Assembly (NCBI GenBank): GCA_017475805.1
Contig: JAFVEW010000023.1
Span: 1-5,226 of the forward strand
Origin: Synergistaceae bacterium
GTDB taxonomy: Bacteria > Synergistota > Synergistia > Synergistales > Aminobacteriaceae
Direction: 5' to 3'
DNA length: 5,226 bases
A program made the translations under genes and the position numbers. Numbering within the stretch: the first letter of the stretch is position 1; every line of letters begins with the position of its first letter. Below are positions 337 through 5,226 of this stretch, one piece after another. The notes beneath the pieces are model-generated. The model worked only from the letters and a program-made list of their open reading frames with translations, was not told the DNA's origin and did no database searches.

Positions 337-636
337 ATGAAACGGTCAGTGCGTAATGTAAGGTTATATTTGAGGGTAACAAGTAAAGAATATACACTCA
401 TAAAAATGGTCTCTGAATTATCGGGGCTTTCAATTTCAGAATACCTGCGAAGACGGGCATATAACATTCGTATTGTAGCGAAGTCAGATATTCATGTTTT
501 GAAAGAACTTAGAAGACTCGGCGGACTTATTAAGCATCTTTATAACGAAACAAATGGAATTTACAGTAAGCAAATGGCAGAAGCTCTTGAAGCCATAACG
601 TCATACGCCCGTGTGCTTGAAAGGAAAATATCATGA
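337..636 (+). CDS. mobC: MobC/NikA-like relaxosome accessory protein
   Basis: A 99-residue basic protein expected to bind oriT and help the relaxase nick it. The N-terminus (about residues 7-45) looks like a ribbon-helix-helix fold: a strand-like VRLYLRVT, then a helix ending EYTLIKMVSELSG, then LSISEYLRRRAYN. The following ELRRLGGLIKHLYNE (57-71) resembles the ELRRIGNNLNQ-type segment of MobC proteins, and the length is normal for the family. The ATG at 337 follows a modest AAGG (325-328) by 8 bases. The stop overlaps the relaxase start (ATGA at 633-636), so the two are translationally coupled. Such RHH proteins often repress their own operon, and the repeats just upstream would fit that. 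The assignment is from motif memory, without a search; a NikA-type name would be equally apt. Confidence 0.82.
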   Translation: MKRSVRNVRLYLRVTSKEYTLIKMVSELSGLSISEYLRRRAYNIRIVAKSDIHVLKELRRLGGLIKHLYNETNGIYSKQMAEALEAITSYARVLERKIS

Positions 637-2519
637 TAGGAAAAATTCCTAAATCGCGTAAGGACGGCAGGAGCAGTTTTAAGGATTTAATAAATTACTG
701 TCTTGGAGTTACGGGGCATTCCACGGGCGCAGTTTTATACGCAGGAAAACAGAACATTAACGACTTCAAAACGGCGGCAGTTGAAATGGAATCTTTGGCT
801 GTCGAAAGCGTCAGATGTAAAACTCCTGCGTTCCATTTTATTCTGTCATGGCGTTCAAATGAAAGCCCAACGAATGAACAGGTTGACGAAGCCGTGAATA
901 TTGCGCTGAAAGAATTAGACTTGCAGGACTGTCAGGCGGTTTGGGGCTTGCAGTCCGACACGGATAATCTTCATGTTCATGTTGCCGTGAACCGAATATC
1001 GCCTGAAACATTCAAGGCGGTTAAACCAGCAGGGGGATTCAGCAAAAAAGCCCTCGAAAGAGCCGCACGGAAAATTGAAATCACTCAGGGCTGGGATATT
1101 GAACGGACTGGACATTACGAAGTAAATTCTTCGGGAGATATTTTATATAAAAAAGAATTTCCAAAACCTGAAATTTCTCAGACTGCAAGGGACATTGAAG
1201 CCTATACGGGCGAAGAGAGTTTTGAGCGTATTGCAAAACGCGAGCTTGCAGAAATTTTAGAGTCCGCAAGAAGCTGGGACGAACTTCATCAAAATTTAGC
1301 GTTAAAGGGCTTTGAGCTTGAACGGAAAGGGAACGGGGCAATTTTGAAACAGGGCGACAAAGCCATAAAACTCTCGCAAGTATCCCGAAACAGCAGTTTT
1401 TCAAAATTAGCGCAGAGACTCGGCGAATATCAGGAACGGCAGAACGGCATAATTATTCAAAATCCGTCAAAGATTTTGCAGTCAGAGTCAAAAACTCCCT
1501 CAAAAAATTTTTCATGGGAAAAATATCTGTCTGAAAAACGCAATTATTTAGACAGTAAATCTTCAGCCCTAAAAAAATTAAGGGAACGGCAGAAGCTGGA
1601 ACGTGAAAATTTATACCAGCGTCATAAAGAAAGCCGTTCAAAGCTATATTCTCAAAGCTGGCGCGGACGTGGCAAGGAGCTAAACCAACGGCGGAGTGTT
1701 ATGGCTTTTTTCCAAGAAAAAGAACGCCTTGATTTGCAAGAGAAGCAGGAGGAGGAAAGACAGGAATTAAAATCTCAATTTCTGAAAATATTTCCTAAAT
1801 TTAGATATTGGCTTGAGATTCAGAATAACGAAGAGTTATCCCGTCTGTACCGTTACCCGGGGCAGTTTTTATTATCGCCCGAACAGTCAGGAATAAAAAT
1901 CGCCCAGCCACGAAAAATTGATTTACGGGATTATCAGGCACGGCGCGGAGCAGGAAGCAAAGTTTTGTACTGTCGGGACGGAAGTTTCACGGCAGATTTT
2001 TCAGACATGGGCAAAAGAATAGTTCTGAACAAACGGAAGCTGACTGAAGAATCAGTTGCGGCGGCTTTACAGCTTGCGAATCAGAAGTGGGGCGCGACCT
2101 TAATCACTGGAAATGACGAATATAAAGAGCTTTGCGTTAAGGCGGCTGTCAAATACGGCTTGAAACTTGCGAATACCGATTTAGCTGCAGAAGTCGAACG
2201 GCGAAAACAGGCTCAGAGAGAAAATCTGCGTCCGATTACGGCTGAAGAAATATTGAATTTGAATTTAGCCGAAAATCCCCAAATTTATCCGAATCCCCGA
2301 AAAGATAATCAGCAGTACACGGGGCGCATCGTTCACATAGACGAAAATCGCGGTTATTGCGTCCAGTTAGTTGGAGAGCGCAGTTTGTTTGTTCACAAAC
2401 TCGAAAAACTCGAACGTCAGCCGTTGAAGGGCGAAACGCTGAAAATCTCATATCCAGATGAAAATCATCAGGCAAAAATCCAGCGCGAAGAAGTCCGCAT
2501 ACGGACTCAAAGTTTGTAA
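633..2519 (+). CDS. MobP-class (TraI/MobA-like) relaxase with LPD7-like and KfrB-like C-terminal domains
   Basis: A 628-residue DNA relaxase that would cleave oriT, stay bound to the 5' end and lead the strand into the recipient. The nuclease domain is residues 1-160. Motif I carries the probable catalytic Tyr22 (DLINYCLG), motif II is HFILSWRSNE (68-77), and motif III is DNLHVHVAVN with the metal-binding His114, His116 and Asn120. A TraI-type segment follows at 210-266 (SWDELHQNLALKGFELERKG, then SRNSSFSKLAQRLGEY). Residues 295-385 are a charged Glu/Lys/Arg-rich coiled coil. About 425-525 resembles LPD7 (LRDYQARRG, AAALQLANQKWG, ITGNDEYKEL). Residues 561-620 resemble KfrB and recur at the end of the downstream ArdC. 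The ATG at 633 is chosen for its AAGG (621-624) and its ATGA overlap with mobC. The gene appears complete and undamaged. The nuclease call is secure; the two C-terminal domain names come from memory of the families. Confidence 0.93.
   Translation: MIGKIPKSRKDGRSSFKDLINYCLGVTGHSTGAVLYAGKQNINDFKTAAVEMESLAVESVRCKTPAFHFILSWRSNESPTNEQVDEAVNIALKELDLQDCQAVWGLQSDTDNLHVHVAVNRISPETFKAVKPAGGFSKKALERAARKIEITQGWDIERTGHYEVNSSGDILYKKEFPKPEISQTARDIEAYTGEESFERIAKRELAEILESARSWDELHQNLALKGFELERKGNGAILKQGDKAIKLSQVSRNSSFSKLAQRLGEYQERQNGIIIQNPSKILQSESKTPSKNFSWEKYLSEKRNYLDSKSSALKKLRERQKLERENLYQRHKESRSKLYSQSWRGRGKELNQRRSVMAFFQEKERLDLQEKQEEERQELKSQFLKIFPKFRYWLEIQNNEELSRLYRYPGQFLLSPEQSGIKIAQPRKIDLRDYQARRGAGSKVLYCRDGSFTADFSDMGKRIVLNKRKLTEESVAAALQLANQKWGATLITGNDEYKELCVKAAVKYGLKLANTDLAAEVERRKQAQRENLRPITAEEILNLNLAENPQIYPNPRKDNQQYTGRIVHIDENRGYCVQLVGERSLFVHKLEKLERQPLKGETLKISYPDENHQAKIQREEVRIRTQSL
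2274..2480 (+). repeat. KfrB-like domain, copy 1 (relaxase C-terminus)
   Basis: Relaxase residues 548-616 align without a gap to ArdC residues 332-400, with 40 of 69 identical. Shared blocks include GYCVQ, LEKLER and LKIS. The match starts before the compact domain and includes the NPR-D-QQ lead-in, which suggests duplication of a whole module within the element rather than two independent acquisitions. Confidence 0.8.
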
Positions 2520-2563: not shown

Positions 2564-2752
2564 ATGGACGAAAAATTGCAGGAAATTCTCAATTATTACG
2601 GGGCAAATTTAGACAACAGCGGAGAACCTGACGAAATTCCCGAATTTGAGGGAGCTGTAATGTTCCCGAGCCTCGAAGAAGAAATTTCGAGGACTAAGGA
2701 ATGGGCACGGAAAGTTCAAAGCTGGAACAAAGACGGAGGCGAAAATTTATGA
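2564..2752 (+). CDS. Small acidic protein of unknown function, coupled to ardC
   Basis: A 62-residue protein with about 15 Asp/Glu against 6 Lys/Arg. I do not recognise a family. Residues 1-12 and 36-55 look helical (SLEEEISRTKEWARKV), while the middle is loop-like and acidic (SGEPDEIPEFEG). There is no signal peptide or membrane segment, so it is probably cytoplasmic. Coding is supported by the strong AAGGAGG 10 bases upstream, the lack of room for anything else, and the ATGA overlap (2749-2752) with ardC. That overlap suggests matched expression and perhaps a joint function. Small acidic proteins near antirestriction genes are sometimes DNA mimics, but nothing in the sequence shows that here; it could equally be a chaperone or partner of ArdC or the relaxase. 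Confidence 0.75.
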   Translation: MDEKLQEILNYYGANLDNSGEPDEIPEFEGAVMFPSLEEEISRTKEWARKVQSWNKDGGENL

Positions 2753-3987
2753 TTTCTTCAAAAGCGCAGGAATACCGCGATGAACTCGTGAAAAAATTAT
2801 GCGACGCTATGGAAAACGGGACTGCCCCGTGGCAGAGAACGTGGACTGACGGGGACGCGCCTTTTAACGCAATAAGCGGCAGGGCGTATCACGGAATTAA
2901 CGCAGTAAATTTAGCGTTGCAAAGTCAGGCGTTAGGCTCATCTTCCGATCCGAGATGGCTCACTTTTGACCAGGCAAAAGAAAAAGGCTGGCACGTAAAG
3001 CAGGGCGAGAAAGGCACTCACGTTGAGTTTTATAAATTTGAAGAGAAGCCTAAATTTGATGAGTCAGGCTCGCCAGTTTTTGACGCGGACGGTAAGCAGA
3101 AAGTTGAAAAAAATCTTATCGTGAGAAATTACGTTGTCTTTCATGCCTCGCAGATTGAGGGAATAGAGCCTTATGTTCCGAAAGCCCGAAATCCCATCGA
3201 GGACAACGAAAAAGCCGAGCGGATTTTGAAAGAATCGTGCGCGAAAATTCTTCACGGAGGCAACGAGGCTTTCTATAACCGTACTGATGACCTCATTCAG
3301 CTTCCCGAAAAAGGGCAGTTCAGAAGTCAGGCGGATTATTACGCTACTGCGCTTCATGAACTTTCACATTGGACGGGACACCCCGACAGGCTGAACCGCA
3401 AAACTTCGAGCGATATGAAGTCTGAAACTTACGCCAAAGAAGAACTTGTAGCGGAAATCAGTTCGATGTTTGTGTCGGCTGAAACGGGAATACCGCAGAC
3501 AAAAGAACATTTTGAAAATCACGCGGCTTACGTTGATTATTGGGTGAAAGCCGTCAAAGAAGACCCGAACGCGCTTTTTAAGGCAGTCAATCAGGCTCAG
3601 AAAGCCTCAGAAGAAATTTTGAAATATGAACGAGTCCGCGAACAGAATCAGACTCAAAATTCACAGGCTGAAATTAAAAATCCTGAACAGAAGCCCGTCA
3701 TAACGAAGCAGACTATTCAGGACTTGAAGCTCATTGACGGCAATCCCGAAATTTTTGAAAATCCGCGAACAGACGGTCAGCAGTTTAAGGGAAAAATTCT
3801 TCACGTTGATGAATCACAAGGCTATTGTGTTCAGCAAATCGGGAAAAACAGCCTTTATGCTCACAGGCTCGAAAAATTAGAAAGGACTCCCGAAGTCGGT
3901 GAAAATCTTAAAATTTCGTTTGATGACAAGGGCGAAAAAGCAAAAATCAGCGTTCAGAAAGAGCGCACTCACGGCTTGAAGCGTTAG
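2749..3987 (+). CDS. ardC: ArdC-family antirestriction protein with a KfrB-like C-terminal domain
   Basis: A 412-residue protein. ArdC proteins bind single-stranded DNA and protect the incoming strand from host restriction. Residues 5-135 form the N-terminal ssDNA-binding domain: APWQRTW (26-32), then AISGRAYHGINAVNL (41-55), LTFDQAKEKGWHVKQGEKGT (71-90) and YVVFHASQIEG (128-138). Residues 195-245 are the metallopeptidase-like domain with HELSH (203-207), the following TGHPDRL, and a likely third zinc ligand Glu236 in EELVAEISSMF. A polar Gln/Lys/Glu linker (about 293-320) leads to a KfrB-like domain (345-400) shared with the relaxase. The ATG at 2749 is preferred over an in-frame ATG at 2701, because it has GGAGG at 2735-2739 nine bases upstream and gives the canonical start of the domain. 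The extra C-terminal domain makes it longer than simple ArdC proteins. The HExxH is intact, so it may be active. Confidence 0.92.
   Translation: MISSKAQEYRDELVKKLCDAMENGTAPWQRTWTDGDAPFNAISGRAYHGINAVNLALQSQALGSSSDPRWLTFDQAKEKGWHVKQGEKGTHVEFYKFEEKPKFDESGSPVFDADGKQKVEKNLIVRNYVVFHASQIEGIEPYVPKARNPIEDNEKAERILKESCAKILHGGNEAFYNRTDDLIQLPEKGQFRSQADYYATALHELSHWTGHPDRLNRKTSSDMKSETYAKEELVAEISSMFVSAETGIPQTKEHFENHAAYVDYWVKAVKEDPNALFKAVNQAQKASEEILKYERVREQNQTQNSQAEIKNPEQKPVITKQTIQDLKLIDGNPEIFENPRTDGQQFKGKILHVDESQGYCVQQIGKNSLYAHRLEKLERTPEVGENLKISFDDKGEKAKISVQKERTHGLKR
3742..3948 (+). repeat. KfrB-like domain, copy 2 (ArdC C-terminus)
   Basis: ArdC residues 332-400 are the partner of relaxase residues 548-616, with 69 ungapped positions and 58% identity. 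Between two otherwise unrelated proteins this points to a shared docking or nucleic-acid-binding module. Confidence 0.8.
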
Positions 3988-3996: not shown

Positions 3997-5226
3997 ATGG
4001 CAAAAGAATCGGCTCTTCATGAGGCACGGCGCAGATTTAACGAGGTCAGCCAGCGAGTATGTTCAGACGGCGATAACTGGCAGAATTTTTTGACGTGCGC
4101 GGCACGGAATCATAAATATAATTTTCAAGACCAGCTCTTGATTTTTGACCAGCGACCTTACGCGACAGCTTGCGCGGACTTCGATTTATGGCATGACCGC
4201 TTTAACCGTTTTATCGAGAAAGGTACGAAAAGTGTAAGATTATTAAGTCCTGACGGCAACTCAGTCAAACACGTTTTTGACATAACGGACACCCGCCCAG
4301 GCTTCGGGCACGAATTTGACGAACCGCCTTACATATGGAAAATTGAAGATGAAGATTCTCAGGCAGTTTCAGAAAGATTAAATCAGGTTTACGGATTTTC
4401 GGGTAATCTCGGAGTGCAGATAGCTGGAATAGCCCGAAATTTTGCCCAAAGGCTCGAAGAAAACGGCGATTCCTTATATTCAGCAAAAACACCCGAAGAA
4501 CGCCAAAAAATCACGGATTTACTCAGCAACAGCGTGGAGTATTATTTGAGAACACGTTGCGGACTTGAAGCGAGAGCAGAAGATTTTAATTTTGAAAGTA
4601 TTTCAGAACTTGACGCTGACACCGTAACTCGTCTTGGCAACTCGGTCAATAATTTTTCGCGTCAGGTTCTCGATAACGTGGAGCGCGTAGTCCGCGAAAA
4701 TCACGAAAGGAGAAAACTTGAAAATGGACGAGAGCAAAATTCCTCCGACAGCCTCATTGATCAACTTCATGACGGGCGAGGAGCTGAATCAGTACGAAGA
4801 CAAAATTCTGACGGAATTGGAAACGAAGCCGGAAGAGGACATGACGATTTATCAGGAATCGGAGCTGACGGAATCGGACAAGGACGATCTGCCGGAGGGG
4901 ACTTTGATGAGAGAACCGAACGACAGAGCGATTTTCGTGAAGATTCTGGACGTTTGGATGCCTTATCAAATGCAGAAGCTGAAACAGCCACCCCAGCCGT
5001 TGACGAAATACGGGAGAATGCGCCGGAAATTCTTGGAGGAGTGGAGAGTTCGGACAGCGTTGGAATTGGGCGAGAATCTCCTGATTCACTGCGCCGAGAT
5101 TCAGGAACAGGCGAAAACAATGAAGCAGGAGCTGATGAGCCAGTTAGAGCAGAACGACCCGCCACCGGACAAGAGCAAAAATCCGATGGCTTGGGTACAA
5201 CACATGAACAGCCTCGACATGCAGGC
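3997..5226 (+). CDS. N-terminal part of a giant SNF2-helicase/DNA-methylase-type element protein, cut by the right edge
   Basis: The frame stays open for 410 codons to the edge. Residues 28-76 (WQNFLTCAARNHKY, then QDQLLIFDQRP, TACADFDLW and RFIEKGTKSVRLL) match the conserved start of the very large helicase/methylase proteins of Bacillota conjugative elements, whose relatives read YHEQLMIYAQRP and WNxxMRRYVRRGAKGIALL. Residues 93-240 continue that family's helical region (VFDITDT, then EYYLRTRCG, LGNSVNNFSRQVL and ERVVRENHERRKLENGR). From about 243 to the edge it is a low-complexity Gly/Asp/Glu/Arg/Ser linker, the part overlapped by tnpV. The helicase and methylase motifs would lie beyond the window, so catalysis is not shown here. 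The first 80 residues also recall the ArdC ssDNA-binding fold. The start at 3997 follows AGGAG 6 bases upstream. The family call is from memory of the N-terminus; the alternative is a shorter stand-alone protein. Confidence 0.82.
   Translation, partial: MAKESALHEARRRFNEVSQRVCSDGDNWQNFLTCAARNHKYNFQDQLLIFDQRPYATACADFDLWHDRFNRFIEKGTKSVRLLSPDGNSVKHVFDITDTRPGFGHEFDEPPYIWKIEDEDSQAVSERLNQVYGFSGNLGVQIAGIARNFAQRLEENGDSLYSAKTPEERQKITDLLSNSVEYYLRTRCGLEARAEDFNFESISELDADTVTRLGNSVNNFSRQVLDNVERVVRENHERRKLENGREQNSSDSLIDQLHDGRGAESVRRQNSDGIGNEAGRGHDDLSGIGADGIGQGRSAGGDFDERTERQSDFREDSGRLDALSNAEAETATPAVDEIRENAPEILGGVESSDSVGIGRESPDSLRRDSGTGENNEAGADEPVRAERPATGQEQKSDGLGTTHEQPRHAG
4709..4712 (+). promoter_or_regulatory. 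Internal ribosome binding site GGAG for the nested tnpV frame
   Basis: GGAG within GAAAGGAGAAAA lies 11 bases before the ATG at 4724. In the host gene the same bases encode the HERRK segment (residues 236-240). A usable start signal inside another gene is what one would expect if the nested frame is translated independently. Confidence 0.5.
4724..5226 (+). CDS. tnpV: TnpV-family protein nested in the helicase-type gene in another frame, cut by the right edge
   Basis: The frame one base ahead of the helicase-type gene is open from 4691 to the edge. From the ATG at 4724 it gives 167 residues so far. Residues 94-167 match the core of TnpV, the small protein first named in Tn4451: TKYGRMRRKFLEEW (94-107), a helix ending in HCAEIQEQAKTMKQEL, then NPMAWVQHMNSL (153-164), equivalent to the MEWVRRMNSI hallmark. 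Residues 1-93 are an acidic extension with IFVKILDVWMPYQ before the core. TnpV's function is unknown. A normal protein composition with Trp, Tyr, Met and Leu, against the low-complexity host frame, argues that this frame carries the selective constraint. Its codons favour G or C at the third position (CTG, GAG, AAG), unlike neighbouring genes (GAA, TTA, AAA); this follows from sharing bases with first codon positions of the host frame. The end of the protein is outside the window. Confidence 0.75.
   Translation, partial: MDESKIPPTASLINFMTGEELNQYEDKILTELETKPEEDMTIYQESELTESDKDDLPEGTLMREPNDRAIFVKILDVWMPYQMQKLKQPPQPLTKYGRMRRKFLEEWRVRTALELGENLLIHCAEIQEQAKTMKQELMSQLEQNDPPPDKSKNPMAWVQHMNSLDMQ

Follow-up and report, generated by a model that had tools for sequence, protein, structure and literature searches.

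Small genes lying out of frame and wholly inside a larger gene of the same strand are known from bacteria and phages, Rz1 within Rz and comS within srfA being examples. Long overlaps have met with reserve, and a referee's view of 2007, in the excerpt of PMC2174442 that deals with them, held that they are uncommon in cellular life and that the longest ones reported vanish as artefacts. Three antisense overlapping genes have been described in E. coli O157, in a work whose passages on annotation point to rules that suppress overlaps (PMC9927249). Regarding TnpV, an excerpt of PMC3158075 states that the protein of Tn4451 has been postulated to act in excision, by its likeness to lambda Xis, and according to the relevant part of PMC9815147, other elements inserted into the snf2 gene of Streptococcus suis ICEs and their kin carry a TnpV gene of their own. 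The locus presented here brings these themes together, since, as far as can be judged from sequence, one stretch of DNA very probably codes for two proteins on the same strand, a giant helicase and an internally initiated TnpV.

The window, that is, the whole stretch of 5,226 nucleotides under analysis, shows on its plus strand a mobilization module followed by a frame that runs from 3997 past the window end, and contains the following features:

337..636, plus strand: NikA-like mobilization protein (Pfam).
633..2519, plus strand: relaxase of the TraI/MobA(P) family, with LPD7 and KfrB (Pfam; NCBIfam NF041893, E 1.7e-92).
2564..2752, plus strand: small ORF (ORF list).
2749..3987, plus strand: gene with an ArdC N-terminal domain, a zincin-like peptidase and KfrB, upstream of the host frame (Pfam, scanned from 2752).
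3997..5226, plus strand: host frame, the start of a methylase/SNF2-helicase gene, with its N-terminal domain at about 3997-4700 and then a linker (ORF; profile).
4707..4712, plus strand: AAGGAG, Shine-Dalgarno-like, 11 nt before the nested ATG and within host codons (sequence).
4724..5226, plus strand: nested tnpV, with ATG at 4724 and 167 codons plus a cut codon, its frame being open from 4718 (PF14198).
4982..5221, plus strand: segment of the nested frame aligned to Pfam TnpV, profile positions 17-100 of 111 (Pfam).

The relaxase at 633..2519 marks the carrier as a mobilizable or conjugative element. On the minus strand, a 105-codon ORF (150-467) lies over the start of the NikA-like gene, and the stretch across the overlap is also open (4767-5225, 152 codons). 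Antisense ORFs of at least 150 codons overlap several nested loci in relatives, the one of Cohnella being annotated as 'hypothetical protein'; this antisense open frame is perhaps a by-product of sequence make-up.

The first-pass annotation had described about 500 bp as open in two plus-strand frames, both with recognisable content, and both ORFs were indeed found. The host frame (3997-5226, plus strand) comprises 410 codons, is still open at the window's end and scores 286 bits with the host N-domain profile. The nested frame (4718/4724-5226, plus strand), likewise open at the window's end, had been identified as a TnpV with its own ATG and a GGAG site, an identification that agrees with its PF14198 match (E 4.3e-13, 49.6 bits against a gathering cut-off of 27), its ATG at 4724 and the AAGGAG at 4707-4712. 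The ending of the linker had been taken for the frame-shifted version of the MAWVQHMNSL segment, and the linker text DGLGTTHEQ is in fact the shifted reading of MAWVQHMN. Similar linkers of related elements, some of them described there as ending in DEMGGADEQHQ-like text, turned up with DEMGRADEQHQ (L014) and DEMGGPDEQ (L058), which are shifted readings of MKWVGLMN.

A protein search with the nested frame returned 42 proteins at E<=0.001 among 69 candidates, the window's own (P0001) included. The other 41 were 51-90% identical to it, those bearing names belonging to Synergistaceae or Fretibacterium, and PF14198 was carried by 41 of the 42, with P0042 as the exception. In the latter, a metagenome protein of 286 aa, the host N-part passes mid-way into TnpV text, and it may result from an indel or a faulty assembly, or else be a natural fusion. 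The TnpV core KYG-MR...L, WV..MN is common to the nested frame and its relatives, and the AEE expected past the window end is present in P0002, a complete 182-aa relative with 90% identity which ends with a further AEEIVLNSLIYS. The AlphaFold model of P0002 (pLDDT 90.8, pTM 0.79) consists of an N-part of helices and short strands followed by three helices, and structure comparison of this model gave no informative match. With low confidence, we would guess that TnpV acts as a small partner of the DNA-processing or recombination machinery of the element.

The window itself ends in the linker and both frames are cut there, so to say, in mid-course; in relatives, the N-domain is followed by the methylase and the SNF2/DEAD helicase in one open frame, and the small gene lies wholly inside the larger one. 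The host frame has 2,212 codons in L001, 1,788 of them after TnpV, and 2,249 in L004, with 1,822 after TnpV, and appeared shorter in L003 (814 codons). SNF2 and Helicase_C scored above cut-off in L001, L004 and L005, where the methylase models stayed below it, and Eco57I methylase was above cut-off in the L206 host. The lengths of the L001 and L004 genes and these SNF2 and helicase matches support the earlier view of the first frame as a helicase-type gene continuing beyond the window.

The TnpV alignment, run against genome contigs, gave 179 relatives, the best 80 being kept, and viral contigs contributed two. Of the 86 TnpV frames contained in these and the window, 25 were placed inside a frame of more than 400 codons. 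All 25 lay in one relative frame, and among the matches listed for these 86 TnpV frames none was nested in any other. The host side was searched with a profile of the host N-domain only, run on 291 Clostridia genomes; since this profile was built from hosts found through TnpV, hosts far from the nest-bearing ones were less likely to be found among the 78 genomes that matched. These yielded 129 host places, 80 of which were examined, the 49 short or broken ones being left out. A TnpV profile match came directly after the N-domain in 69 of the 80, in the same relative frame in all 69, 13 of these matches being weak or short. The host frame was open through TnpV in 68 of the 69 profile-matched loci and closed in L132; in three of the 68 (L131, L156 and L165) it stops within 41 codons past TnpV, and one more ends with the contig.

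Two of the 80 places reach the contig edge before the nest, leaving 78 with room. Eight of them (L177-L182, L185 and L191) contain, in the same place and the same frame, a frame of 137-155 codons with TnpV-like text, and a profile of these eight divergent nested frames matched the TnpV profile with probability 80 and E 1.3e-5. The sole host with room and no nested frame is L172 (G260:C68). In total, the nest was found in 77 of the 78 Clostridia places with room (69 by profile, 8 by reading frame), with the host frame open through in 76; in L149, at a contig end, and in L165 the nested frame is present, though short. Together with L207, the eight loci form a very divergent nested subfamily with NPTYAVMRLDYL-like text, missed by the TnpV profile or below its cut-off, which may deserve a family model of its own.

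Outside the Clostridia, 180 Synergistales genomes gave 10 host matches, in 9 genomes, that cover most of the model. TnpV was nested in seven; of the other three hosts, one lies at a contig end and two (L223 and L227) look broken and are devoid of an intact TnpV. The same nest was observed at plasmid loci of Cohnella, Virgibacillus, Listeria, Streptococcus agalactiae and Subdoligranulum, where Pfam TnpV matched the nested frames of Virgibacillus (2e-21) and Listeria monocytogenes (1.1e-6) above cut-off and that of S. agalactiae (0.013) below it. In a Monoglobus locus TnpV is present and the host frame is broken in the N-domain. Mapping homologues of both proteins has thus placed them in the same position and the same relative frame in many elements. 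Stops proved not to be frequent in the nested frame, present and open in 77 of the 78 Clostridia host loci with room, and this count, along with the Bacilli plasmids, lends weight to the initial guess of a recurrent and old arrangement.

Several observations bear on the history of this arrangement. Distances of the host N-domain and of TnpV agree (Mantel r 0.79, 0 of 2,000 permutations, 56 clusters). In a quickly searched tree with 77 nested and 44 free TnpV rows, 121 in all, the two states required 11 changes, as against 36 in shuffles, at least four of the changes being forced by strong branches, and a single split of nested and free copies was rejected by the AU test (p 8e-12); both the host and the TnpV trees are quick searches rooted at the midpoint, and that of TnpV stands on few columns. 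Free clades appear among nested ones, as L116 and L121 inside L136, L154 and L128. In the five cases looked at, the gene before the free tnpV encodes a Mob_Pre relaxase in three and a serine recombinase in two. L172 can be regarded as a natural empty version, in which the long linker and TnpV are both missing and the same downstream motif is reached through a short linker. It groups in the tree, without strong support, among nest-bearing hosts, a position that suggests loss of the nest. Codon usage favours neither frame, the value for the TnpV frame being higher in 28 of 53. We infer from these data that the nested state is probably old in the helicase family and that many free-standing tnpV genes would have come out of the nest. 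With the root placed at the midpoint, the simplest reading would be an old nest, occasional loss and several escapes to free-standing tnpV.

How the nest came into being admits two histories. It is quite possible that a free tnpV was first located between two genes, or was inserted into one, the host frame being opened through it later, a capture that differs from birth in place in history alone. Such a course is favoured by the fact that, of the two partners, TnpV is the conserved one and has a confident fold model, the linker looking like its shadow, as well as by L172, where the host domains are joined without TnpV. Against it speak the nested copies, which occupy either side of the midpoint root and have free clades interspersed, and the weakly supported position of L172 among nest-bearing hosts, suggestive of loss. 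More tentatively, we propose that the TnpV family might have been born by overprinting in the helicase gene of a conjugative element, from which it would later have escaped several times to give the free tnpV genes that neighbour serine recombinases and Mob_Pre relaxases.

Whatever its origin, expression of the nest would proceed as follows. Ribosomes starting at the host ATG (3997) would translate the whole series from the N-domain through linker and methylase to the helicase into a single giant protein of the conjugative or mobilizable element, and other ribosomes would begin inside the host message, at the internal Shine-Dalgarno sequence and ATG (4724), to produce TnpV, whose reading frame would end within the host gene. 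Both the translation of the two frames and internal initiation are predicted from features of the DNA, among them a Shine-Dalgarno-like match of at least 5 bases before the nested start in 31 of 60 clusters, as compared with 8.8% of 3,973 control stretches; the remaining 29 clusters have no match of that length with the start chosen. Alternatively, programmed frameshifting could join TnpV to the host N-domain in a single fusion product. P0042, whose host N-part runs into TnpV text, would fit this possibility, although an indel or assembly fault is as likely an explanation, and so would L159, where about 155 codons upstream of the domain are open in the TnpV frame. However, the nested frame of L019 and L058 has a stop just one codon ahead of the ATG, and because of this closure and the Shine-Dalgarno enrichment internal initiation is favoured over frameshifting, which we consider unlikely.

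The open state of the host frame across TnpV is not chance. For the window, keeping the TnpV protein and drawing its codons anew from the window's other genes gave an open helicase frame in none of 20,000 trials (12.2 stops on average, 0 observed); when the helicase-frame protein was kept instead, 0.44% of 20,000 trials had the TnpV frame open. The set of 129 nested loci, which contains some places twice, was then reduced to 60 clusters at 80% identity, and the codon-redraw test on the clusters excluded the single locus whose host frame is closed (present under two handles, L114 and L132). Holding the TnpV proteins and redrawing codons from the usage of each host gene, 0.1 of 60 clusters were expected to be open in the host frame and 60 of 60 were; the third frame was open in 0 of 60, both expected and observed. 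Among TnpV domains adjoining a host domain, 127 of 130 had no stop in the host frame (some loci fetched twice), the three exceptions being a broken host that was counted twice and an additional TnpV copy next to L156, whereas none of the 74 TnpV domains without a host domain nearby was stop-free in that frame (1-19 stops each).

These figures make it very unlikely that the host frame goes unused across the overlap, a single operon yielding three separate products (N-domain protein, TnpV and helicase) and the openness being a by-product of TnpV composition. In line with that explanation, constraint on the linker is weak, host-frame stops number just 1-3 in some free TnpV frames, and free copies show slightly fewer stops than the codon null (mean z -0.41); yet the explanation has to face the 60 of 60 open clusters, the 0 of 74 among TnpV domains away from the host, and L172, in which a short linker with no TnpV in it fuses the same N-domain to the same helicase parts.

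Selection mainly protects TnpV. The proportions of differing host codon positions 1, 2 and 3 were 0.249, 0.146 and 0.114 inside the overlap and 0.182, 0.137 and 0.357 outside, a reversed pattern drawn from 40 pairs, some of which are the same places fetched twice. For fourfold sites, 30 pairs sharing no member were compared, 27 of the 129 loci having been dropped as second copies. Host-frame differences amounted to 40 of 1,221 sites (3.3%) inside the overlap versus 1,891 of 5,825 (32.5%) outside, and the scarcity of such changes inside the overlap indicates that the nested protein is strongly conserved. At fourfold sites of the TnpV frame, 261 of 1,103 differed, the corrected ratio to outside being 0.67 (0.52-0.83) over all 30 pairs and 0.94 (0.70-1.26) in the 12 closest, intervals that are optimistic because some of the 30 pairs are near-copies of others. 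Amino-acid differences reached 756 of 3,917 (19%) in TnpV and 1,205 of 3,917 (31%) in the linker, with 22% for the remainder of the host. Taken together, the TnpV-frame fourfold ratios and the amino-acid differences indicate that the linker is mainly required to stay open; selection on its amino acids is weak and could be mere avoidance of stops. The comparison of rates in both frames, put forward in the first-pass annotation, yielded strong constraint on the TnpV frame, but constraint on the helicase linker turned out to be weak. TnpV would be the product kept by selection, and the host linker a loosely constrained spacer whose main duty might be to remain stop-free. That the TnpV frame is instead a decaying or untranslated passenger, conserved through the host protein alone, is extremely unlikely, since a few short or broken copies (L165, L227) are all that was found in its favour, host-synonymous fourfold changes show an about tenfold depletion in the overlap that cannot be produced by selection on the host protein, and TnpV amino acids differ less than those of the linker.

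Existing records, read from plasmid gene tables that are incomplete, tend to give one frame of the two. The Cohnella record lists 'TnpV protein' and the antisense 'hypothetical protein' and no helicase over the N-domain, those of Virgibacillus and Listeria welshimeri list 'SNF2-related protein' and no TnpV, and that of S. agalactiae lists neither TnpV nor helicase. In the Monoglobus record, where the host frame is broken, TnpV is annotated and the helicase is not. It is suggestive that annotation shows half of the nest, and TnpV and helicase families may therefore both be undercounted. With its recurrence at one position and in one frame in Synergistota, Clostridia and Bacilli, the nest makes available dozens of diverged lineages in which two-frame evolution can be measured on the same bases. 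These findings recast TnpV as a protein whose home may be inside a conjugation helicase gene and, were birth by overprinting true, an out-of-frame nest would be the birthplace of a widespread mobile-element protein family.

The arrangement resembles Rz1/Rz and comS/srfA in that the small gene is on the same strand, in another frame and fully contained, and departs from them in that the nested frame has about 120-190 codons and belongs to a named protein family, and in that its hosts, mostly genes of 1,500-3,650 codons, are spread over Synergistota, Clostridia and Bacilli. With the antisense overlaps of E. coli O157, as given in the passages of PMC9927249 on annotation, it shares suppression by annotation; those overlaps lie on opposite strands, while the nest is same-strand and extends across phyla. 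A S. agalactiae plasmid with snf2 in its name (L207) bears a host locus of the nest kind with a divergent TnpV-like nested frame and, judging from that name, its host is probably the same gene as the snf2 of PMC9815147; the part of that article dealing with S. suis ICEs mentions no overlap of frames, unlike the nest described here. As regards TnpV itself, the nested frame matches the PF14198 profile above cut-off and has the core motifs common to its relatives. Nevertheless, the TnpV genes treated in the excerpt of PMC3158075 appear as ordinary, separate ORFs, whereas here the gene lies inside another gene, in 77 of the 78 host loci with room for it.
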